Shown piece by piece: positions 4,405-60,756 of a stretch of 64,000 nt of DNA. The stretch comes from Candidatus Bathyarchaeota archaeon (GTDB lineage: Archaea; Thermoproteota; Bathyarchaeia; Bathyarchaeales; Bathycorpusculaceae), in NCBI GenBank assembly GCA_026014745.1, contig JAOZHS010000001.1, positions 62,001-126,000 of the forward strand, in the 5' to 3' direction. The notes beneath the pieces are model-generated. The model was not told where the DNA came from. It saw only the letters and a program-made list of their open reading frames with translations, and searched no databases. A program made the position numbers and the translations under genes. The stretch's first letter is position 1. Each line of letters begins with the position of its first letter.

Positions 4405-6433
4405 CGCTCAGCTAACTATTGACCCTCAACAACGGTTTCAGGAATTTTTCAAAAAAGAGAAGTACCGCCAACGCATCGCCCAGTTAGCCATCACAGGCAA
4501 GGGTTCCGTGACTATTGATTTTGAGGAGCTCTACGGGTTTGACCAAGCCTTAGCTGAACAACTCCTAAACAAACCCGAAGAATACCTCTTGCATGCAGGT
4601 AAAGGCGCCTATGAGCAGCTACGCATTGAAGATGTTGAGTACGCGGAGAAAATCGAGAAAGTCATCGTCCGCATTGTGGCGTTACTGGGTAAAGAGCAAC
4701 TACGCAGACTCGGCTCCAAAAACATGGCTAAACTCGTCATGGTTGAAGGCATCGTGGTCCGCGCCACACCCGTGCGGCCCATGGTGCAGATTGCAGCCTT
4801 CAAATGCAAGCGCTGCGGCACCATGAACCAAGTTGAACAAACAGGTCAGTTCCTCAAAGCTCCCGCAATATGCATGGCACCCGACTGCGGCAGAGACGGC
4901 CCGTTTGAGTTTGCTCAAGAAGAATCCACCTTCATCGACAGCCAAGATTTGCGTTTGCAGGAAAAACCCGAAGACCTCCCCCCAGGACAACTTCCCCGAA
5001 CACTAGCGGTGAAGCTGATAGGAGACGAAATTGTGGATCAAGCCCGCCCCGGCGACCACGTGTCGCTTGTTGGCATCGTCCGCGCGTTTGCGCCGTCAAT
5101 GATGGGGCTAGGCAAACTCCGAACATTCATCCTACAACTCGACGCTAACTCCATCGAGGTTTTAGGCAAAGAACCCGAAACCTCTCCGCCTACACCTGAA
5201 GAAGAAGCAAAGATCCTCGAATTAGCCCGAGACCCCGAAGTGCACAAGAAAATCCGAAACTCCATTGCACCATCTATCTTTGGTAATGAACACCTAAAAG
5301 AAGCCGTCATGTACCTGCTGTTCGGCGGCGTCTCAAGAAGTCTACCCGACATGACTATCAGAGGCGAAATGAACGCCCTTATCATCGGTGACCCAGGTAC
5401 CGCCAAATCACAGATGCTTCAATACGTTTCCCGTATTGCACCCCGAGGGCTCTACACCTCAGGCAGAGGAACCACCGCCGCAGGCTTAACCGCCGCCGTT
5501 GTCCGCGAAAAAGGCGGCTCAATGTCACTGGAAGCAGGCGCACTCGTCTTAGCCGACAAGGGAATCGCCTGCATCGACGAAATGGACAAAATGCGTCCCG
5601 AAGACCGAGTTGCCATCCACGAAGCCATGGAACAGCACACAGTCTCCGTCGCCAAAGGAGGCATCGTCGCAACCCTCAACGCCCGCACCGCCGTGCTGGC
5701 AGCCGCCAACCCCTCACTGGGCAGATATGAGCCTAACCGTACCGTAGCAGAGAACGTTCCCTTACCCGTCACAATCCTCTCCCGTTTTGACCTCATATTC
5801 GTCTTACGAGACGTGCCCAACAAGGAAGCAGACGGCAAAATGTCACGGCACATACTAGAAATCCACCGCCGAGGCATAACACCCACTGAAGCACCCGTAG
5901 ACGCCGAGTTACTGCGCAAATACGTCAGCTACGCCAAAATGGTTAAACCTGAACTAAGCGAAGAATCCCTCAAGGCACTTAGCGACTTTTACTTAGCTAT
6001 GCGTTCAGCCAGCGAAACCGAGGGCTCACCCGTCGCCATCACCGCCCGACAGTTAGAATCGCTTGTGCGTATTGCGGAGGCACGTGCACGGGTAGCTTTG
6101 CGCCCCACTGTAACTGCAGAAGACGCCGCCGCAGCTATCACTATCATGAAGCGATCGCTTGAAGAAGTCGGCATCGACTTGTCATCTTACAAGATGGATA
6201 TTGACTTAATCATGACGGGTCGCCCCAAGAGCATCCGCGACCGCTTAGGCGTTGTCATCTCAACGATTATGGAGATGGAGAAAGTCACCGGCATCGTGGA
6301 GAAAGATAAGCTAGTTGCCGAGTTAGAGACTAAGCATAAGATTCCAAGGGGCGAAGTGGAACGTATGGTCAGCCAGTTGCTGCGTGAAGGCACCATTTAT
6401 GAGCCGCGTGAAGGATGCCTAAAGAAAACTTAA
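4397..6433 (+). CDS. mcm: Replicative DNA helicase MCM
   Basis: 678 aa from a TTG start with GGGGAG 7 nt upstream. Domains: N-terminal helical region (1-~110); OB fold with a zinc finger (two CxxC-type pairs, CKRC and CMAPDC, ~137-165); AAA+ domain with Walker A GDPGTAKS (~330), Walker B CIDEMDK (~391) and arginine-finger motif SRFDLIF (~461); and a C-terminal winged helix (~600-678). The length is normal and there is no intein. It unwinds DNA 3' to 5' as a hexamer at the fork. It overlaps gins23 upstream, and its 3' end runs close to wecB. Confidence 0.97.
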   Translation: MANAQLTIDPQQRFQEFFKKEKYRQRIAQLAITGKGSVTIDFEELYGFDQALAEQLLNKPEEYLLHAGKGAYEQLRIEDVEYAEKIEKVIVRIVALLGKEQLRRLGSKNMAKLVMVEGIVVRATPVRPMVQIAAFKCKRCGTMNQVEQTGQFLKAPAICMAPDCGRDGPFEFAQEESTFIDSQDLRLQEKPEDLPPGQLPRTLAVKLIGDEIVDQARPGDHVSLVGIVRAFAPSMMGLGKLRTFILQLDANSIEVLGKEPETSPPTPEEEAKILELARDPEVHKKIRNSIAPSIFGNEHLKEAVMYLLFGGVSRSLPDMTIRGEMNALIIGDPGTAKSQMLQYVSRIAPRGLYTSGRGTTAAGLTAAVVREKGGSMSLEAGALVLADKGIACIDEMDKMRPEDRVAIHEAMEQHTVSVAKGGIVATLNARTAVLAAANPSLGRYEPNRTVAENVPLPVTILSRFDLIFVLRDVPNKEADGKMSRHILEIHRRGITPTEAPVDAELLRKYVSYAKMVKPELSEESLKALSDFYLAMRSASETEGSPVAITARQLESLVRIAEARARVALRPTVTAEDAAAAITIMKRSLEEVGIDLSSYKMDIDLIMTGRPKSIRDRLGVVISTIMEMEKVTGIVEKDKLVAELETKHKIPRGEVERMVSQLLREGTIYEPREGCLKKT

Positions 6434-6447
6434 AAGAGGAAAACAAT

Positions 6448-7536
6448 GTGAAGCCTATTGTAGTTGTCACGGGAACCAGACCAGAAATCATAAAGATGGC
6501 ACCAATCCTGCGCGCCCTTAAAACTGCAGGGTTACCCAGCGTGTTTGTTCATTGTGGGCAACATTACGACTACAGTATGGCGCAGCAATTTATAGAAAAC
6601 CTTGAACTAACTGCCCCTGATTGCTGGATAAAAATTGAAGGTTCCTCGCCTGGAGCTCAAACGTCAGAAATAATGGCCAAAATGGATGAGCTTATAGGAA
6701 AAGTTGATCCTGCAATTGTGCTTGTGGAAGGCGACACCAACACCGTCTTGGCCGCTGCATTAGCTGCCAACAAGCGCAGCATACCTATTGGGCATATAGA
6801 AGCGGGTCTGCGCAGTTTTGATTTGCGTATGCCCGAGGAACATAACCGCCGCTTAACCGACCATATCTCTGAGTTTTTATTTGCGCCAACGGAGAGAGCA
6901 AAGTCAAATTTGGTTTCAGAGAATGTTTGGGGCAAAATTCACCTTACAGGAAACACCGCCATCGACGCTGTAACCCAACACCTCCCCCTAGCAGAAAAAA
7001 AATCAACTATGATGCAGCAGATCCCATTCAGAACTTACGCGTTGGCAACGGCGCATCGAGCAGAAAACGTCGATGACCTCAACGTATTGGAGTCATTTAT
7101 GGAAGTATTTGAGAAGTCCCCGCTTCCAATCGTTTACCCCATGCATCCACGTACCCGAAAACGCCTCCAAGAAAATAACCTGCTTGCTAAAATCACAGCA
7201 ATGAAGAACGTGCTGATTTTGCCGCCGCTGGGCTACTTGGATTTTCTGGTTTTAATGAAACACAGCCGTTTGATCATTACGGATTCTGGCGGCATTCAAG
7301 AGGAAGCCACCGCGCCAAGCATTAGAAAACCTGTGTTGGTAATTCGGTTGTCTACGGAGCGTCAGGAAGCCGTGGAAGCAGGGTTTGCTCGGGTGGTTGG
7401 AACAGATAAAGCCAAGATTTTAGAGGCAATACAGCAAACCATAGAAACTAAAGAGATGCTGTCCTCTACTTCGCCATTTGGGGACGGCAAAGCCGCCGAA
7501 AAAACTGTTGCGATAATAAAGGAAAGTTTGGTTTAA
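6448..7536 (+). CDS. wecB: UDP-N-acetylglucosamine 2-epimerase (non-hydrolysing)
   Basis: Interconverts UDP-GlcNAc and UDP-ManNAc for surface polysaccharides or N-glycans. Family motifs are in order: GTRPEIIKMAP near the N-terminus, CGQHYDYSMA, EGDTNTVLAA, GHIEAGLRSFD with MPEEHNRRLTD, TAHRAENVD, and the nucleotide-binding ITDSGGIQEEA near 290. The open frame begins at ATG 6415 inside mcm, but GTG 6448 has a GAGG site 8 nt upstream and starts right at the first beta strand (VKPIVVVTGTRP), so it is preferred (362 aa). It probably belongs to the same transcript as mcm, though the functional link is with the glycosyltransferases elsewhere in the window. Confidence 0.93.
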   Translation: MKPIVVVTGTRPEIIKMAPILRALKTAGLPSVFVHCGQHYDYSMAQQFIENLELTAPDCWIKIEGSSPGAQTSEIMAKMDELIGKVDPAIVLVEGDTNTVLAAALAANKRSIPIGHIEAGLRSFDLRMPEEHNRRLTDHISEFLFAPTERAKSNLVSENVWGKIHLTGNTAIDAVTQHLPLAEKKSTMMQQIPFRTYALATAHRAENVDDLNVLESFMEVFEKSPLPIVYPMHPRTRKRLQENNLLAKITAMKNVLILPPLGYLDFLVLMKHSRLIITDSGGIQEEATAPSIRKPVLVIRLSTERQEAVEAGFARVVGTDKAKILEAIQQTIETKEMLSSTSPFGDGKAAEKTVAIIKESLV

Positions 7537-8303
7537 GAAATATAGGTAGTTTTCTTGTCTTCCTGTTTGCGGGTTTCTTCAGCTTGTACGGCACGTTTCT
7601 CTTCGATTTGCTGAAGGCGTGCGACCATGGATTCGGCGCGGGATATTTCGTCATTGAGTCCTGTCAGGTCTAAGTCAAAGTTAAAGGTTGACGCGAGGAC
7701 TTCTAGCACACTTTTGGCTGCTAAGGGGTCAGGTAAGTAGCCGCGTGTTTCGCCAAGCAGACAGAGAGCTTCGACTTTTTTGAATTTCGCCAATCCAAGG
7801 ATTAAGCCTGCTGTGCCAACGATGGGACTGCCTGATGCGCTTAGTGTTGCGCCTGCGTCGAGGGCTTTGTGGATTATGTCTTGGTTGGTTGCGGCTATGT
7901 AGACTTTGGGTTTTTCTTTGGGTTCCATACGGTAGCCACCAATGGTGGCGATGGTTTTGACACTGTGCTTTTCAGAAAAGTCTAGCATACAATCGGCAAT
8001 TTCGTATTGACCCTCAATGGTTTGACTTTGGCTATCGCCGGTGAAAAGGATTATGTCGTTTCCTTTGGGGTTCTGGTAATAGTAGAAGGAGCCGCGGAGA
8101 AGCCGCACGTTGCCTTTCTTGTTAACGAGTACGAAGTAGGGGAAGTGAGGCGAGTAAAGGTAAGCGAATTTTTTGGCTTTGAGTTGTTTAACGAGGTAGC
8201 GTAAAGCTATTTTGCCGACTAACCCCAAGCCAGGGAGACCTTCAATGAGAACAGGATTGTTAGGTTGGATTTGAGCGAATTCTTTGATGTAAGTTTCTTT
8301 CAT
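7533..8303 (-). CDS. PAC2-family protein (proteasome-assembly-chaperone fold)
   Basis: 256 aa. The N-terminal NPVLIEGLPGLGLVGKIA and the later TIGGY and SGSPIVGTAGLILGLA segments are typical of archaeal PAC2 proteins. The C-terminal ~45 residues are a charged coiled coil. Eukaryotic PAC2 helps assemble the proteasome alpha ring, but the archaeal role is not established. Its ATG overlaps the nop10 stop as ATGA, so it is the last gene of the rpl44e-rps27e-eIF2alpha-nop10-PAC2 operon, an arrangement seen in many archaea. It meets wecB tail to tail with a 4-bp overlap. Confidence 0.88.
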   Translation of the reverse strand: MKETYIKEFAQIQPNNPVLIEGLPGLGLVGKIALRYLVKQLKAKKFAYLYSPHFPYFVLVNKKGNVRLLRGSFYYYQNPKGNDIILFTGDSQSQTIEGQYEIADCMLDFSEKHSVKTIATIGGYRMEPKEKPKVYIAATNQDIIHKALDAGATLSASGSPIVGTAGLILGLAKFKKVEALCLLGETRGYLPDPLAAKSVLEVLASTFNFDLDLTGLNDEISRAESMVARLQQIEEKRAVQAEETRKQEDKKTTYIS

Positions 8304-53816: not shown

Positions 53817-54650
53817 ATGAAGGATAAATTCAAACTTGCCCTCTGCCAGATCAGCAGCAAAAGAGAAGACAAACAGGGCAACCTCCAAAAAATAGAAGAG
53901 TTAACCCGCAAAGCCAAAGCAGAAGGCGCTGAACTCGCAGTTTTCCCCGAAATGTGCCTTACTGGTTACGTGTTGCATGACCAAATCTACGAGCTAGCCG
54001 AAACCATCCCCGGACCCTCTATCAAAAAGGTAGAGGCTTTAGCTAAAGAGACGGGTATGCATATTATATTTGGGATGCCTGAAAGAAGCGAAAAAGCCAA
54101 GCTAACGCTCTATAATACTGCCGTCTGCATTGGACCTGATGGAGTAATCGGGAAATATCGAAAAATGTATCTGCCCACGCATAGCGTGTTTGAGGAGAAA
54201 CGTTATTTTCGTCTCGGCTATGAACCTGTGGCATTGCAAACCAGCCTCGGTAACATCGGCTTAACGATCTGTTACGACGTATTCTTCCCAGAAGTCTTTA
54301 GGCTGCCACGGCTTATGGGTGCGCAGCTTATAGTCTGCATTTCTGCCTCGCCTGCGGTTCGTCGAAGCTACTTTGAAGTTTTGACTTCTGCAAGGGCATT
54401 GGAAAACACGGCTTTTTTGGCTTATGTAAACCTCGCAGGGGTTCAGGAGGGTTTGCAGTTTTGGGGTGGAAGCCGCCTTGTAAGCCCTACAGGAGATGTT
54501 TTAGCTAAAGCGAAGTATGATGAAGAGGACTTTGTAATAGCAGAGGTCGATTTTACGGATTTGCGTGCAGCGGAAACATTCATCCCTACCATGCGGGATC
54601 TGCGTCCGGAGCTTTTTGAGAAGCTTAAGGATTTTTGTGAGCGTTTCTAG
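53817..54650 (+). CDS. Nitrilase-superfamily carbon-nitrogen hydrolase
   Basis: 277 aa. The Glu-Lys-Cys triad is visible: E in VFPEMCLTG (~45), K in YRKMYLP (~117) and C in TICYDVFFPE (~152). The substrate is not deducible. Close coupling to nadE (10 bp) suggests either a glutaminase-like ammonia donor for NAD synthesis or an omega-amidase/agmatinase-type role. The C-terminus reads DLRPELFEKLKDF. Confidence 0.87.
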   Translation: MKDKFKLALCQISSKREDKQGNLQKIEELTRKAKAEGAELAVFPEMCLTGYVLHDQIYELAETIPGPSIKKVEALAKETGMHIIFGMPERSEKAKLTLYNTAVCIGPDGVIGKYRKMYLPTHSVFEEKRYFRLGYEPVALQTSLGNIGLTICYDVFFPEVFRLPRLMGAQLIVCISASPAVRRSYFEVLTSARALENTAFLAYVNLAGVQEGLQFWGGSRLVSPTGDVLAKAKYDEEDFVIAEVDFTDLRAAETFIPTMRDLRPELFEKLKDFCERF

Positions 54651-54685
54651 CAGGTCACGTTTCGTGTTTTTTGATGTTGTTTAGA

Positions 54686-54787
54686 ATCACAGGTGCATCA
54701 CAGCACGTGATGTCAAGGGTTGTATGGTAAAATCACGGTGATTTTGGCGTGATGGATTGATATCACGGGGTTTTTTGTTTAAATCAC
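54686..54787. repeat. ATCAC/GTGAT array, left part (8 copies)
   Basis: ATCAC or its complement GTGAT occurs at 54686, 54697, 54707, 54732, 54738, 54749, 54762 and 54783. Several steps are 10 or 11 bp, one helical turn. The pair at 54732-54742 forms the palindrome ATCAC-G-GTGAT. It lies in the 488-bp gap after the nitrilase gene. Confidence 0.8.
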
Positions 54788-54987
54788 GTGTGAGACTATG
54801 GAAAAACAAGGTTGTTTTGAGAGGAGATTAATTGTAAAAAGTGTGTCTTATTCGATGTGTATCCGTTAATTTTGTGTAGTATCGCAGTTTGTAGCATTTG
54901 CAAAAGTGCATTTTTTATGTAAAGTTCAGGGTAAAAGGTTGTTTGAATCTTTGAGAATTTAGCCTTTTTAATGTTAACTGGTCAGAA

Positions 54988-55007
54988 TTCGACGGGAAAC
55001 CGTCGAG
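54988..55007. other. Hairpin with GAAA tetraloop
   Basis: CGACGG-GAAA-CCGTCG is a perfect 6-bp GC-rich stem with a GNRA loop, extended by one T-A and one T-G pair, in otherwise AT-rich noncoding DNA. It could be part of an RNA leader for the gene at 55139 or a protein site. Confidence 0.45.
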
Positions 55008-55138
55008 AACGTTTGTAATTTCCTTGTTTTTTAATTTAGGCTGTAATTTAGCTTTTTATTTTGTGGATACATGGAGTTTAGCGCTTGGAGAAAGGATAAA
55101 AACGCGAGTAGGTATACAAAACTGTATCCATTACAGAG

Positions 55139-55636
55139 ATGGAGATAAACGATAAAATGAAGCTAAAAGAAGGAGTACAAGCATGGTTAAATGGGGCTTT
55201 AAACGACCCCATTGTACAAATACTGGCAAAAAACAGCCAATTAACTAAAACACAGCTCGAGACGTTCTTAATTGACGTTTTAGCCGAAAATATATCAGGC
55301 AAACAACTAAAATACGACGATAAAGCCGCCTTACGGCTAACAAGGGCAAAAATAAGTCGCGGAAGCTTTAATAGGACATTAAAACAGTCCAAAGAAAACG
55401 TCATAAAATCCATCTACACGGTCCTACTTTTAGGTTATTTAGGTGTGTTTGAGAGCACAACTCTTGACCCGTACCTCGAAATAGCCAATAAACTGCACAA
55501 TTATGTGGAGGCTCACCAGGACGTACCTACCAAGGAAGAGGAGCTAAAAGACCATCTAAAAGTCATAGAAATCATCCGAGAAGAGCTAGAAACAAGCCTA
55601 AAACGGCTTTCTAGCCCATCAGAACAGCCTCTGTGA
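55139..55636 (+). CDS. Unknown protein between the two ATCAC/GTGAT arrays
   Basis: 165 aa, start ATG 55139 (55157 is an in-frame alternative). Predicted all-helical and basic in the middle: LRLTRAKISRGSFNRTLKQ followed by NVIKSIYTVLLLGYLGVF could be a helix-turn-helix-like DNA-binding segment. Then comes a charged coiled-coil-like C-terminus (~120-155). There are no cysteines, signal peptide or clear TM. I recognise no family. Its position between dense short repeats and 2.3 kb from the likely origin suggests a DNA-binding or chromosome-maintenance role, which is inference. Confidence 0.65.
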   Translation: MEINDKMKLKEGVQAWLNGALNDPIVQILAKNSQLTKTQLETFLIDVLAENISGKQLKYDDKAALRLTRAKISRGSFNRTLKQSKENVIKSIYTVLLLGYLGVFESTTLDPYLEIANKLHNYVEAHQDVPTKEEELKDHLKVIEIIREELETSLKRLSSPSEQPL

Positions 55637-55936
55637 TGTCACAAATCACAACAAATCACCATTTTTTGGCTATAAAATGAAGTTATTAACCCAGGAGAAT
55701 AGACCTTAAATCACTATTAAATTCTGAAAATAAGCTTAAAATAAAGCTATTTTTTAGGCAACATTGTTAAGGAACTATCTAGAGGAAAATATGTGATGTG
55801 TGATATCATGTATAACTGTGATAAAAAGACCGTAAACCTTAAAAAAGCCCATGGAAATAAGTGTGATGTGTGATGTAACCGTTTGAATCACGGCAAAATC
55901 ACCGAAAAATCACAAGCATCATGAGGCATGATATCA
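55633..55936. repeat. ATCAC/GTGAT array, right part (12 copies)
   Basis: Copies at 55633, 55645, 55655, 55793, 55800, 55818, 55863, 55870, 55887, 55898, 55909 and 55932. The run 55887-55898-55909 has exact 11-bp steps, and GTGATGTGTGAT doublets occur twice (55793 and 55863). The last copies enter the first codons of the next gene (ATG 55921), so they overlap its likely leaderless promoter. Confidence 0.82.
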
Positions 55937-56694
55937 CGGTTGACTTAACCATAATACTTGTTGGCGTGCTGCTTGCTGCTACAACGGGAGCTTCCATAGA
56001 GTACTACAGGCAAATACGTAAGGCACAAAAAGAGTATGAGAAAGCGCGAGACTTCGTGGAAGATATAGTGTTAAGTTTCAACCGGGAACTTAAGCGCGAA
56101 TCAGATCGTTTTGAATCTATAGCATTTAAGGTTGATGGAAGCGCATCGAAGTCTGAGAGTAACCAAAACAAAATTGAAAACTTTGAAAAAAAGTTAGCCT
56201 TCCTCGAGGAACAACTTGGCAGCGTCGGCCTAAGTATTCAGCAATTACTAACACAAGACACACAAAACAACACTAGTCTGCTTTCAAGTTTAGAGGGGCT
56301 CGAATTAAAAATCCAAGACATCGAAGCCTCTCAAGAAACCCTTCGAAATAAAATCATCGAGGTTGAAACCCAAATACAAAAAATACCAACAACGCCACCT
56401 GAAGTCAAAACCGAACCACTCATGCCTGTTATACCCATCAAACGAGACAAAGCCATGGCTGCCCTCACTGACACCGAAATTGCAGTTTTAGAAATGCTCT
56501 CCAAAGAGGGAGCAAAAACGGCGCCTGAAATCAAAGAGCGCCTCCAGCTTAGCAGAGAGCATACGGCGCGGTTGATGAAGAAGCTCTATGAGGAAGGGTA
56601 TCTTGAGCGTGAAGCGGGCAAAATCCCGTTCAGATACAGCATCAAAAAAGAGATGGAAACCTTGATGCAGAAAGCTGAAAGTACCTCTACGTAG
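55921..56694 (+). CDS. Membrane-anchored coiled-coil protein with C-terminal winged helix
   Basis: 257 aa. One N-terminal TM (~8-25) is followed by basic residues (RQIRKAQK), placing the rest in the cytoplasm. A long coiled coil spans ~30-155, a Pro-rich linker ~157-178, and a MarR/TrmB-like winged helix ~183-250 (LTDTEIAVLEMLSKEG, APEIKERLQLSREHTARLMKKLYEEGYLERE). This could hold DNA at the membrane. No ribosome site is seen before ATG 55921, fitting a leaderless mRNA. It lies between the repeat arrays and the origin. Confidence 0.72.
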   Translation: MRHDITVDLTIILVGVLLAATTGASIEYYRQIRKAQKEYEKARDFVEDIVLSFNRELKRESDRFESIAFKVDGSASKSESNQNKIENFEKKLAFLEEQLGSVGLSIQQLLTQDTQNNTSLLSSLEGLELKIQDIEASQETLRNKIIEVETQIQKIPTTPPEVKTEPLMPVIPIKRDKAMAALTDTEIAVLEMLSKEGAKTAPEIKERLQLSREHTARLMKKLYEEGYLEREAGKIPFRYSIKKEMETLMQKAESTST

Positions 56695-56705
56695 ACGAGA
56701 TTTTT

Positions 56706-57137
56706 TTATTTTATATGTTGCTTTATTGCTGCCTGAGCAATGTTGGGTGCTGTTTTGTATTTGAGGTTGTTGGGTCCTCCAGTTCGCTGCAGCATACCTT
56801 TATTGGCCATACGAGAAAGATAAGTGGAGATAGTGCTTAAGCTGACGGGTTCTTTGAGTTCCTGCTCATAGACAGATTGGATCTCTTTGGACGAGAACCA
56901 GATCAGGGGGAAGTTCTTTTGGATAACAAGCTGCACCTTCTCAAAACGTGACAAAGATTTGTTTGTAATTGCGGTGGTAGCGTTGGCTGTTGGGTTTTCG
57001 CTTGGTGCACCACCTAACAGCTCTACAAGGTCAAGTAGCCGCATAGCTTTGTCACGGGTCACTTGACCCTCAAAACCAATGGTATATCGATTACCATCGC
57101 TATCGAACAGCTCTACGCGGATCTTGCGAGCCGGCAC
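56706..57137 (-). CDS. Winged-helix protein next to the origin
   Basis: 143 aa from GTG 57137. The N-terminal ~40 residues form a small beta domain (RKIRVELFDSDGNRYTIGF), then a short linker. The C-terminal winged helix (~70-140) includes FSSKEIQSVYEQEL, SLSTISTYLSRMANKGML and the wing RTGGPNNLKYKT. Family not recognised. Its ribosome site AAGGTG is inside a perfect palindrome (57143-57156), and a second palindrome lies at 57174-57188, suggesting tight, perhaps self-made, control. It is convergent with the membrane wHTH gene (11 bp gap). Confidence 0.68.
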   Translation of the reverse strand: MPARKIRVELFDSDGNRYTIGFEGQVTRDKAMRLLDLVELLGGAPSENPTANATTAITNKSLSRFEKVQLVIQKNFPLIWFSSKEIQSVYEQELKEPVSLSTISTYLSRMANKGMLQRTGGPNNLKYKTAPNIAQAAIKQHIK

Positions 57138-57142
57138 TTGTT

Positions 57143-57156
57143 ACACCTTAAGGTGT
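57143..57156 (-). promoter_or_regulatory. Palindrome that covers the ribosome-binding site
   Basis: ACACCTTAAGGTGT is perfectly symmetric. On the minus strand its right half AAGGTG is the Shine-Dalgarno sequence for GTG 57137 (6-nt spacer). As RNA the two halves could pair and hide the site; as DNA it could be an operator. Confidence 0.5.
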
Positions 57157-57173
57157 TCACAAGTTTACGCTTC

Positions 57174-57188
57174 ACAGCTTATAGCTGT
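57174..57188. promoter_or_regulatory. 15-bp palindrome upstream of the wHTH gene
   Basis: ACAGCT-TAT-AGCTGT, nested inside a wider CTTCAC/GTGAAG inverted repeat (57170-57175 with 57193-57198). A natural candidate operator for the wHTH protein encoded at 56706-57137. Confidence 0.5.
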
Positions 57189-57328
57189 TATGGTGAAGTA
57201 GGGTAATTAGAAAAGACCATTTCAGGCTCATAATTGGAATTAATGATTTTTTTGTGGTTTGTTTGGAATTACCAGCTTCACATGAAAAGGTTAAGTTAAA
57301 AATAATCCAGTTATTGATTGGTTTTGAT

Positions 57329-57352
57329 TTTGCAGTGGAAGCGCAGGGGTGC
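57329..57352 (+). other. ORB-like box 1
   Basis: TTTGCAGTGGAAGCGCAGGG followed by GTG. It keeps the CAGTGGAA core and the G-string of the known archaeal origin recognition box (TTCCAGTGGAAAC...GGGG). Confidence 0.6.
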
Positions 57353-57576
57353 CTTCTTCACTTGTTAACGGTAGAATAAGGGTATTTTAGGGGGAACGGA
57401 GTGCGGGGGAAAGCTGTTCACATTGCATCTTTACTGTTATTCACAGTTTTGTGAAAGCTAAAATTGTTGTGAATAGCTTTGAACAGAAAACTTGAGAGTT
57501 AAAATCAAGGATTGTAAGGAATCCAAGGAATGCACTTGCCAGGTAATGATTTTTTCCATGGAAAAAACGTATGCAC

Positions 57577-57600
57577 AGACACCCCTCTGTTTCCGATCGA
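57577..57600 (-). other. ORB-like box 2 (inverted)
   Basis: On the minus strand: TCGATCGGAAACAGAGGGG then TG. The GGAAAC core and G-string are intact. It points away from the AT-rich region. Confidence 0.6.
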
Positions 57601-57675
57601 AGTTTTTTTAGGAAAAAGAAGTTTAGGAAGCTTCAAAAAATATTCGCAGAGAGTTTGTCTAAACTCTTAGATAGC

Positions 57676-57755
57676 AACAATTAATATATGAAAACACAAT
57701 TTACCACTCAGAGTATATTCTTATATATAGTATATTATGATTTAATTTTATAATC
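57676..57755. other. AT-rich candidate duplex-unwinding element
   Basis: Dense in TATATA/TTAATA steps with only isolated G/C, located between inverted ORB-like boxes 2 and 3. Confidence 0.6.
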
Positions 57756-57764
57756 CAGACTTCT

Positions 57765-57790
57765 TTTCCAGTAGAAACGTTGGGGTGTGT
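57765..57790 (+). other. ORB-like box 3
   Basis: TTTCCAGTAGAAACGTTGGG followed by GTGTGT: the best match to the ORB consensus, with a single change in the CAGTGGAAAC core. Its G-string points away from the AT-rich region, toward cdc6. Confidence 0.68.
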
Positions 57791-57936
57791 CTTTTTCTAG
57801 GGTTACTTGGTTCTTAGCTACTATACGGTTCTTTTTTTAGGAATGTGTTGTTCTAAAACCAGATTTTTGTACTGTATCCTTTATCTGTTCCACAAGAAAT
57901 AACGGTTGTACCACTGAAAAGATAGGGGCTGAAAAA

Positions 57937-59178
57937 ATGGGCAATTCAAGCGTACTTGATGACGTATTTGACAATTTCGTTAACGGCATTAAACTGTTCA
58001 GAGATCGCGAAGTTCTAAGACATGATTATATCCCTGAAAAATTGCCTCATCGTGAAGACCAAATTCGCCTTTTAGGCGTTACAGTAGCCCCTGTCCTGCG
58101 AGATGCACGATGTTCAAACATTTTTATCTACGGCAAAACTGGTACAGGTAAAACAGCTGTGACCAAATATGTCCTGAGTCACTTAGAATCTAAGGCTAAG
58201 GAATTTGGCGCCCAAGTCAAGTTTTGCTACATTAATTGTCGTATGGTGGGCTCTGAATATCGTGTGTTTGCCAGCTTAAGCCAAAGCGTTGGTTTATCTA
58301 TCCCCTTCACAGGCTTATCCGTTGGAGAAGTTTTTGATCGCTTCCGCCAAGGCCTTGATCAATCTCGAATAATATTCATAATCGTTCTCGACGAGGTTGA
58401 TGCTCTCATTAAGGACCGCGGCGACTCCTTTATGTATGAACTCACCCGCATAAACGAAACTCTCCACAATAGCAAAGTCTCCATCATTGGCATATCTAAC
58501 GATCTTCGCCTCAAAGAATTTCTCGACCCCCGCGTCTTTAGTTCCCTTAGTGAAGAAGAACTTGTCTTTAGACCCTACGACGCGGCTGAACTCCGCAACA
58601 TCCTCTCGGAACGTTCCAAGCTGTCTTTTCAAGATGGTGTGCTTTCTGATTCAGCTCTAAGCATATGCTCTGCTTTGGCGGCTGCAGAACACGGCGATGC
58701 TCGGCGAGCTCTTGATTTGCTGCGGGTCGCTGGTGAAGTCGCAGAACGTCAAGGTTCAAAAGCTATAACTGAGGAGCATGTGCGCCAAGCCGAAAAACAC
58801 ATAGAACACAACAGAGTAATTGACGCGCTCAAAAATTTGACTCTGCACTCAAAACTGGTGCTTCTAAGCGTCTATCATTTAAACAAATCTAACGCTTCAA
58901 CTGGGGAAATATATGACGTTTATAATGAACTGTGCGGCGAATTTGGTGCAGGGTTGTTGACGCAGCGTAGATTGGGCACATTGATTAACGAGTTGGATTC
59001 GATGGGACTGGTGAACGCTAAGGTTGTGAGTATGGGGCGTTACGGTAGAACTAAAAAAATCCGCTTGGAAATTTCTCGCAGTCTAATTCGAGATGTGCTT
59101 AGCGGCGATGACATGGTTGGGCGCCTAATCGGTTATTCGCCTCAAGCTCTTCACAAAAACGTCGACAAGACTCTATAA
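57937..59178 (+). CDS. cdc6: Origin-binding protein Orc1/Cdc6
   Basis: 413 aa. AAA+ ATPase with Walker A IYGKTGTGKTAVTKY (~66), Walker B IIVLDEVDALIKD (~148), sensor 1 GISNDL and sensor 2 region HGDARRALDLLRVAGE. The C-terminal winged helix (~300-400) includes STGEIYDVYNELC and GRYGRTKKIRLEI. It binds origin boxes and loads MCM. It is transcribed away from the ORB/AT-rich region and overlaps the convergent DP1 gene by 6 bp. Confidence 0.96.
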   Translation: MGNSSVLDDVFDNFVNGIKLFRDREVLRHDYIPEKLPHREDQIRLLGVTVAPVLRDARCSNIFIYGKTGTGKTAVTKYVLSHLESKAKEFGAQVKFCYINCRMVGSEYRVFASLSQSVGLSIPFTGLSVGEVFDRFRQGLDQSRIIFIIVLDEVDALIKDRGDSFMYELTRINETLHNSKVSIIGISNDLRLKEFLDPRVFSSLSEEELVFRPYDAAELRNILSERSKLSFQDGVLSDSALSICSALAAAEHGDARRALDLLRVAGEVAERQGSKAITEEHVRQAEKHIEHNRVIDALKNLTLHSKLVLLSVYHLNKSNASTGEIYDVYNELCGEFGAGLLTQRRLGTLINELDSMGLVNAKVVSMGRYGRTKKIRLEISRSLIRDVLSGDDMVGRLIGYSPQALHKNVDKTL

Positions 59179-60756
59179 GAACGACAAAATGGTCGTTTCG
59201 AGAGTTTGCAGGTTCACTACTGGCACTTTGCCTGGCGTAGGAACTAGCCCTAATTTTTCCATGTAATCCGTTTGGGCTTGCCAGCCGCCTGAATTAATTA
59301 CGAGTACTCCGCGGTAATTGCATAAGCCGTTTACGTGTATGTGCCCTGCGTGGAATATGTCTGGAACTTTGTCAATCACTAGGTAGTCTTTGTTTTCTGG
59401 GGAGAGCATGGTTTTGCCGCCGTAGACTGGTGCTAGATGACGACTCTGGATTAGTAGCCGCATAGCTTTTTCGGGGTGATCATGATCCATGCCGGGAACT
59501 ACGCCGATTATGTCATCTAAGCTTCTGCCATGATACATCAAAACATCTACGCCGTGCAGGTTTAGCAGGCAGGGGCTTCCTACTGAGTGTATGTTGGCTT
59601 TGTCTTTAATGGCTGTGAGATATCCTTCTGGTATGGCGGGTTGGGGGAGTGATTTGCGGGCTGCATCATGGTTACCTGGTGAAATGAAGATGTCGATGTA
59701 GCTGGGAATTTTTTCAAAGTATTTGATGGCAAAGTCGTATTGCTTGTGCACGTTGCGGATTGTTAACTCATGCTGCTGTCCGGGATAGATGCCGATGCCA
59801 TCCACGACATCGCCAGCGATTAGAAGATATTTTACTCGGCCTGCAATTTCACGCATTTCTGGTGTGCCATATTTGCCTCGGAGCCACTGTATGAACCGTT
59901 TGAAGGCTTCTTTCTCGAATTTTGTGCTGCCGATGTGAATGTCTGAGGTGAGTACTGCATAGATGGGTTCAGGGGCGCGTTGGATGGCTTTTCTGCCGAT
60001 TTCGGGGAAAATTATGTCCTCGGCTAGGAACAGGTTGGTTCGGGTTTTGATTACGGCTAGACAGATTATTTGGTCGGGTAAGAGCATGAGTGCTTTTTTG
60101 CGTACCTCTTGCTGGGCTTTTTGGGGGACCATTACTGTGGCGCTGGCGTTGAGGTCCTCAACTGTGAGTATGGTGTTGTTTTTTGAATCCCGCTTCTCAG
60201 TAAGCATGCATATGATTTTTAGTTTGGTTTTCGGCTGAGACTTCAGCGCCTCCGCGATGGGGGTGGCGCCTCTTACGTCAATTCTTTGCCGAAACAGTTT
60301 TTCTATACGTTTGAAGCGGTCTTGGAAATACCCTACATATTCCTCGAGGGTGCCGTTGGATGTGAGTTGGCCAGTGGCGTCGTCGAGGATTTTAAAGTCG
60401 GAGGGGATGCTTTTTGCATAGGGGTAGAAAAACTCGTTTACTTCGTATTGTTCGGATAGAGCGGGTTCTGGTGAACTTGCGGGTGGCAAAGTGGGCTCTA
60501 GTGTGGGTTCAGACTGGGGCTCAACTACTGCGCTGGTTATGGTTGGCTGATGCATCAAGGTCTCCAGAAAGGCTTTTTCAATAAACATTGGCTTCTCTTG
60601 AAGCTCCTCGATTTTTTGGAGCGCCAAATTCATGAGGCAAACGGGGTCGTTGGTTTCGCAGGTTTGGCTTAGGAACTCGAAGGCTTCACTGTTTAGCATA
60701 TACCCTGCAGTGATTGTTGCCTCAATCGCCTTCTGAAGTCTCTCTTGCCCACTCAT
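59173..60756 (-). CDS. polD1: DNA polymerase D small subunit DP1 (proofreading exonuclease)
   Basis: 527 aa. A variable N-terminus contains a Pro/Glu-rich linker (~85-110). An OB fold (~165-245) is followed by a calcineurin-like phosphoesterase domain with SDIHIGS (~273), AGDVVDG, SPGNHDAAR, MYHGRS and HAGHIH, the Mre11-like active site of the 3'-5' exonuclease. Partner of DP2 at 48331-51753. It is divergent from the PhoU-like gene. Confidence 0.96.
   Translation of the reverse strand: MSGQERLQKAIEATITAGYMLNSEAFEFLSQTCETNDPVCLMNLALQKIEELQEKPMFIEKAFLETLMHQPTITSAVVEPQSEPTLEPTLPPASSPEPALSEQYEVNEFFYPYAKSIPSDFKILDDATGQLTSNGTLEEYVGYFQDRFKRIEKLFRQRIDVRGATPIAEALKSQPKTKLKIICMLTEKRDSKNNTILTVEDLNASATVMVPQKAQQEVRKKALMLLPDQIICLAVIKTRTNLFLAEDIIFPEIGRKAIQRAPEPIYAVLTSDIHIGSTKFEKEAFKRFIQWLRGKYGTPEMREIAGRVKYLLIAGDVVDGIGIYPGQQHELTIRNVHKQYDFAIKYFEKIPSYIDIFISPGNHDAARKSLPQPAIPEGYLTAIKDKANIHSVGSPCLLNLHGVDVLMYHGRSLDDIIGVVPGMDHDHPEKAMRLLIQSRHLAPVYGGKTMLSPENKDYLVIDKVPDIFHAGHIHVNGLCNYRGVLVINSGGWQAQTDYMEKLGLVPTPGKVPVVNLQTLETTILSFL

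Follow-up and report, generated by a model that had tools for sequence, protein, structure and literature searches.

A conserved ATCAC array beside the probable replication origin of a Bathyarchaeon and its putative membrane-anchored reader: a candidate centromere-like system

We identified a dense array of the short word ATCAC beside the probable replication origin in the 64,000-nt stretch of a Bathyarchaeota genome that we analyzed (the window). We propose that the array is read by a neighboring membrane-anchored winged-helix protein, P257, and that it would serve as a centromere-like site that tethers the origin region, while also regulating its own genes. We place the probability of this reading at a little under one half (about 0.47). 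The array, the selection acting on it, its association with P257 and with that protein's recognition helix, and the predicted transmembrane segment and winged helix were each obtained by computation and are set out below.

The word was counted as the 5-mer ATCAC/GTGAT in both orientations. It occurs 100 times in the window, and 21 of these copies make up the array, which has two strandless halves of short, non-palindromic repeats in both orientations. The left half (54686–54787) holds 8 words directly 3' of the CN-hydrolase gene, all confined to the initial 102 bp; no copy lies in the 350 bp upstream of the P165 gene. The right half (55633–55937) holds 13 sites between the P165 stop codon and the first P257 codons, including two copies of GTGATGTGTGAT (7-bp step) and ATCAC at 55887, 55898, and 55909 (11-bp steps), and it spans the likely P257 promoter. 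Array sites precede both genes, and some extend over the P257 start. A first-pass annotation of this DNA had reported 20 copies in two noncoding stretches (54651–55138 and 55637–55936); exactly 20 lie there, and the whole array has 21. Pattern searches of the full 2.7-Mb genome and a density scan of 464 kb were used to assess how unusual the locus is. The word averages 0.99 copies per 800 bp in the sampled 464 kb, with 13 in the densest 800 bp, at the array, and 6 in the next best segment, so the equally dense clusters elsewhere that would have spoken against a special role did not appear in that sample. The triple pattern ATCAC-N0-30-ATCAC-N0-30-ATCAC occurs nine times in the genome, seven of them in the array (a control pattern occurs three times), and all four genomic instances of ATCAC-N6-ATCAC lie inside it. 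The array is a single-copy, multi-site locus found once in this genome. An Rfam scan of positions 54500–58000 found no RNA.

The two protein genes and the array are conserved as one block, which usually adjoins cdc6 and the PolD genes. Of 101 relatives, 88 have a P165 match and 87 a P257 match, and the conserved order is DP2-GGGPS-Elf1-NadE-CN hydrolase-[array]-P165-[array]-P257-P143-oriC-Cdc6-DP1. Orc1/Cdc6 lies at 57937–59178 on the forward strand of the window, and the PolD small subunit DP1, a conserved neighbor, at 59173–60756 on the reverse strand. Other classes of the phylum have remoter homologs of P165 and P257, and these are mostly neighbors again. Many relatives also carry a 2.6-kb insert between P257 and P143 that encodes a HerA ATPase/NurA nuclease-like pair, named by eye from sequence motifs (about 5693–8030 of locus L063, and at L084, L107, and L121); the window is without it.

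Conservation of the array next to these genes extends through the order and to distant families in the phylum, which answers the check on relatives proposed in the first-pass annotation. Among 24 congeners, site identity is 87% in the left half and 83% in the right half, the figures for noncoding bases within 25 bp being 45% and 53%. ATCAC is intact on average in 16–17 of the 24 congeners versus 3–4 for other noncoding 5-mers (p about 4e-7, a nominal value because the genomes are related), and this difference indicates that the word is under selection. Across the phylum, ATCAC is the top enriched 5-mer 3' of P165 in eleven families (f1, f2, f4, f5, f6, f9, f10, f17, f22, f45, and f48 in our numbering), of which f17, f45, and f48 are probably Nitrososphaeria. 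Pooling the relatives extended the word to A-n-ATCAC-R. Two same-strand steps are preferred in the pooled set, one of 11 bp with 83 pairs and one of 7 bp with 80, and this preference is seen in every Bathyarchaeia group examined. The 10–11 bp steps that had suggested helical phasing do exist, but the description of sites on one face of the helix is incomplete; pure phasing is out as a full account, with 7-bp steps as common as 11-bp ones. A functionless cluster arising by chance or low complexity would find some footing in the AT-rich noncoding DNA. We give it a negligible probability: the rarity of the pattern, the retention of sites, the 5-mer enrichment, and the in-gene excess described below are each strongly above chance, and within-genus conservation together with enrichment in eleven families refutes it.

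P257 (55921–56694, forward strand) is the proposed reader of the array. As originally described, it is predicted to have one transmembrane segment (residues 5–23), a long helix or coiled coil, and a cytoplasmic winged helix (residues 182–255), which we found to be MarR-like; the length of the linker is highly variable among homologs. The winged helix matches PF01047 (E=6e-8, 32.8 bits against a cut-off of 24.6), is modeled by AlphaFold with a pLDDT of about 90, and contains the recognition helix REHTARLMKKL (56554–56586). As for helices of a MarR dimer interface, the N-terminal part forms a long transmembrane/coiled-coil helix in a model of low pTM. The C-terminal flank of the transmembrane segment is positive in all 28 P257 homologs examined, which by the positive-inside rule places the winged helix inside the cell. 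Foldseek matched this domain to MarR regulators and to AspA of pNOB8 (4rs8/5k5q; TM-scores on the target of 0.64–0.71), and many ordinary MarR regulators are as close to P257 as AspA is. Two loci (L237 and L241, in f20/f28) have a P257 homolog that apparently lacks the transmembrane segment, about 650 bp from P165, and few ATCAC words.

P165 is predicted to be a soluble, all-helical protein (mean model pLDDT 82.6). Its open reading frame starts at 55139, which gives 165 aa, and the gene (55157–55636, forward strand) probably begins at Met7 (55157), giving 159 aa, because sequence conservation starts there. Most relatives have TTG at the position corresponding to 55157. Searches of Pfam and NCBIfam returned no family, in line with its initial description as a protein of no known family, and neither a PDB sequence search nor Foldseek gave a solid match or a PDB fold. 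A weak helix-turn-helix signal (sigma-70-region-4/HTH_10-like, about residues 29–85) was matched only in divergent homologs. P165 is the better conserved member of the pair.

We compared the density of the word with the proteins present at each locus. Eleven loci that encode P165 but have no P257 match average 0.8 words per 550 bp, over a background of 0.7. Genomes whose P257 carries the helix REHT[AS]R[LM][LM]K have 8.6 words per 550 bp (background 1.1), and those with other recognition helices have 2–3. Within f22 alone, the first helix class goes with 4–8 words and the others with 0–4 (p=3e-4, nominal, with helix classes set after looking at the data and related genomes). The rule does not hold cleanly in G144, in f20/f28, or in some f26 and f17 genomes. 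In one genome (G121) with divergent P165 and P257, the ATCAC cluster lies at the P257 start. P257 is thus most likely the reader of the array, since the array tracks P257 and its helix and is absent where P165 occurs alone. On the same counts, P165 alone is insufficient for an array.

Five loci (L224, L225, and L255–L257) carry the helix REHVSRILK and no ATCAC, and most of these have several ACGTCA words at the P257 start. Among genomes with altered helices, there are hints that the word shifts to ACGTCA or GTCAC. We keep a switch of specificity with the altered P257 helix as a suggestive lead; it is not part of our main evidence because it comes from few close relatives chosen post hoc.

The reverse division of labor, in which P165 is the specific ATCAC reader and P257 merely a membrane adaptor, would be in keeping with the stronger conservation of P165 and with the helix-turn-helix signal of its divergent homologs. 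We consider it improbable: P165 without P257 comes without an array, array content goes with the P257 recognition helix, and genomes with P257-like proteins and no detected P165 are still weakly enriched in ATCAC. We favor P257 as the putative reader and P165, its obligate neighbor, as probably a co-binder or bridge.

The likely origin had been placed further on from the array, and the spacer at 57138–57936 (strandless) is indeed the probable oriC. It contains ORB-like elements with GGGGTG tails around 57332–57356, 57548–57592, and 57759–57792, and the cumulative GC skew turns nearby, a noisy and merely suggestive signal. A scan of this spacer for ATCAC found none. Seven TTCACA/TGTGAA words at 57156–57473, in the spacer between P143 and cdc6, resemble ATCAC yet are distinct from it, and TTCACAA occurs in the spacers of 66 of 67 relatives. 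These words are possibly sites of P143 or part of oriC. P143 (56706–57137, reverse strand) is a conserved winged-helix protein adjoining the origin; it is also kept where P257 is absent and is not clearly part of the system. The array lies about 1.2–3.3 kb from the ORB-like elements and cdc6, and it could on that account be imagined to control initiation, for example as an element of oriC that titrates the initiator or unwinds. We regard this as very unlikely, given that the oriC spacer lacks ATCAC and the motif does not resemble ORB. The P165–P257 pair of f22 and f26 is separated from cdc6 by 15–150 kb, and the array remains with P257. The array therefore follows P257 and not the origin itself.

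We asked how the word is distributed inside coding sequences. In three families (f17, f45, and f48), the array extends into the 3' end of the P165 coding sequence, where valine before a codon starting with AT is encoded by GTG in 38 of 44 cases; the figure for the rest of these loci is 55 of 281. Outside the order, the word exceeds its codon-usage expectation 2.9-fold in P165 and 3.5-fold in P257; within Bathyarchaeia, the excess is 1.8-fold in P257 and 2.5-fold (z=11) in an unrelated aminotransferase gene. This gene lies between the CN hydrolase and P165 genes in other genera, divergent from P165, and its sites fall at fixed places about 500–640 nt from the gene start. The word is conserved in the aminotransferase coding sequence upstream of P165 at five loci (L093, L094, L107, L114, and L126). 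Cdc6, DP2, NadE, CN hydrolase, and P143, which served as controls with the same phylogeny, showed no excess of ATCAC/GTGAT in the codon-usage test, and GGGPS outside the order showed a smaller one (1.7-fold). P165 of Bathyarchaeia is depleted in the word relative to codon-usage expectation (0.61-fold), as is the PolD small subunit gene (0.73-fold, z=-4.1).

The in-gene sites are hard to account for as promoter operators. We weighed the simpler idea, also raised in the first-pass annotation, that P257 or P165 represses or activates only its own genes from a large set of operator sites, with the membrane anchor serving to sense a signal. The positions of the sites ahead of both genes and over the P257 start suit this idea, as do the MarR-like fold of P257 and the fact that the array stays with P257 at loci remote from cdc6. 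Regulators anchored in the membrane are known. Sites are, however, kept far from promoters, in the aminotransferase coding sequence, the P165 3' end, and P257 itself; the left half of the array lies 350–450 bp upstream of P165; and about 21 sites is far above the number in usual operators. Autoregulation may well be true in addition to tethering, but the selected in-gene sites argue against autoregulation alone, which we judge unlikely though still the main competitor.

We return to the centromere-like tether, which the first-pass annotation had put forward and which is the best-fitting candidate. We infer that P257 would bind the array directly, that DNA would thereby be tethered to the membrane, and that the complex may have a role in partition or positioning. 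In this model, the cytoplasmic winged helix of membrane-anchored P257 would bind the array, with P165 as a possible co-binder or bridge beside it. Many P257 molecules on about 21 sites could then keep the origin region in place at the cytoplasmic membrane, and an origin kept there might help to position or sort sister chromosomes, with no ParA-type ATPase encoded in the locus. The array very likely autoregulates its own genes as well; parS-like and SegB sites often do so.

A search of the conserved block found no gene for a ParA-type Walker ATPase and no parAB. ParA-family ATPases are encoded elsewhere in the same genome, outside the block. Three f17 genomes that keep the system have no full-length ParA/SegA-type match, only short partial PF13614 matches in longer open reading frames, PF13614 being an indirect proxy for SegA. 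These genomes are compatible with a motor-free tether. A broader proposal is that an ancient chromosomal centromere-like system is shared by Bathyarchaeia with further families of the phylum, ammonia-oxidizing archaea probably among them. Its ATCAC array, present once per genome beside oriC, would be bound directly by an integral-membrane winged-helix reader with P165 as partner; the system would anchor and sort sister origins without a ParA/SegA ATPase, and the word would co-evolve with the recognition helix. We hold this extension more tentatively than the tether itself.

The form that centromeres take on archaeal chromosomes is listed among open questions (PMC5120986), and SegAB is a described archaeal chromosome system (PMC12284271). 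Our analysis offers a conserved cis-acting site beside the origin, a named protein that is a candidate to read it, and a predicted anchor in the membrane. These cells may use the array to hold or sort their chromosomes. If so, it would become directly testable how Bathyarchaeia, and probably ammonia-oxidizing archaea, position their origins and segregate their chromosomes, with one DNA mark and two proteins to follow.

We compared the array and its proteins with known systems, and no previously described system combining these parts turned up in literature searches. Noc links DNA to the membrane. Bacterial ParABS/Noc systems have origin-proximal site clusters like those here, but we matched neither a ParB/Noc or CTPase fold nor the RHH fold of SegB; P257 is a MarR-like winged helix, P165 is all-helical with no known fold, and the putative reader is an integral membrane protein. 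The SegAB system of Sulfolobales also acts on an archaeal chromosome and has sites clustered at its own genes, mostly inside coding sequence, and its motif, the 13-bp palindrome TCTAGASTCTAGA, occurs at scattered chromosomal positions (PMC12284271). SegB is an RHH protein that works with a ParA-type ATPase, whereas the system described here has a winged helix with a transmembrane segment, the word ATCAC in place of TCTAGASTCTAGA, and one locus. The system falls outside both ParABS and SegAB: the block has no ATPase, the folds differ, and the word differs. The array is likewise not an ORB dyad with its G-string, the ORB-like elements being in the separate spacer. P257 shares its C-terminal winged helix with MarR regulators but has no evident MarR dimerization helices, and it adds a transmembrane segment, a variable coiled-coil linker, and a very large array at a single locus.

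Two plasmid systems are closer. AspA of pNOB8 is a winged-helix centromere-binding protein with a site upstream of its own gene (PMC5120986), and its structures are among the better Foldseek matches of P257. AspA spreads from one 23-bp palindrome and works with ParB and ParA, whereas the array has about 21 short non-palindromic sites, P257 has a transmembrane segment, and the locus has no ParA or ParB. StbA of R388 provides motor-free plasmid stability through stbDRs, 9-bp repeats spaced by 2 bp (an 11-bp period) around its own promoter (PMC3098194). Both systems place an array of short direct repeats at the genes of the reader, here a putative one and with same-strand steps of 7 and 11 bp. 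They differ in that StbA is plasmid-borne, belongs by description to another protein family, and recognizes another motif, whereas this array is chromosomal and enters coding genes. We know of no transmembrane segment in StbA. With these differences, the proposed system would appear to work most like StbA-stbDRs and AspA.
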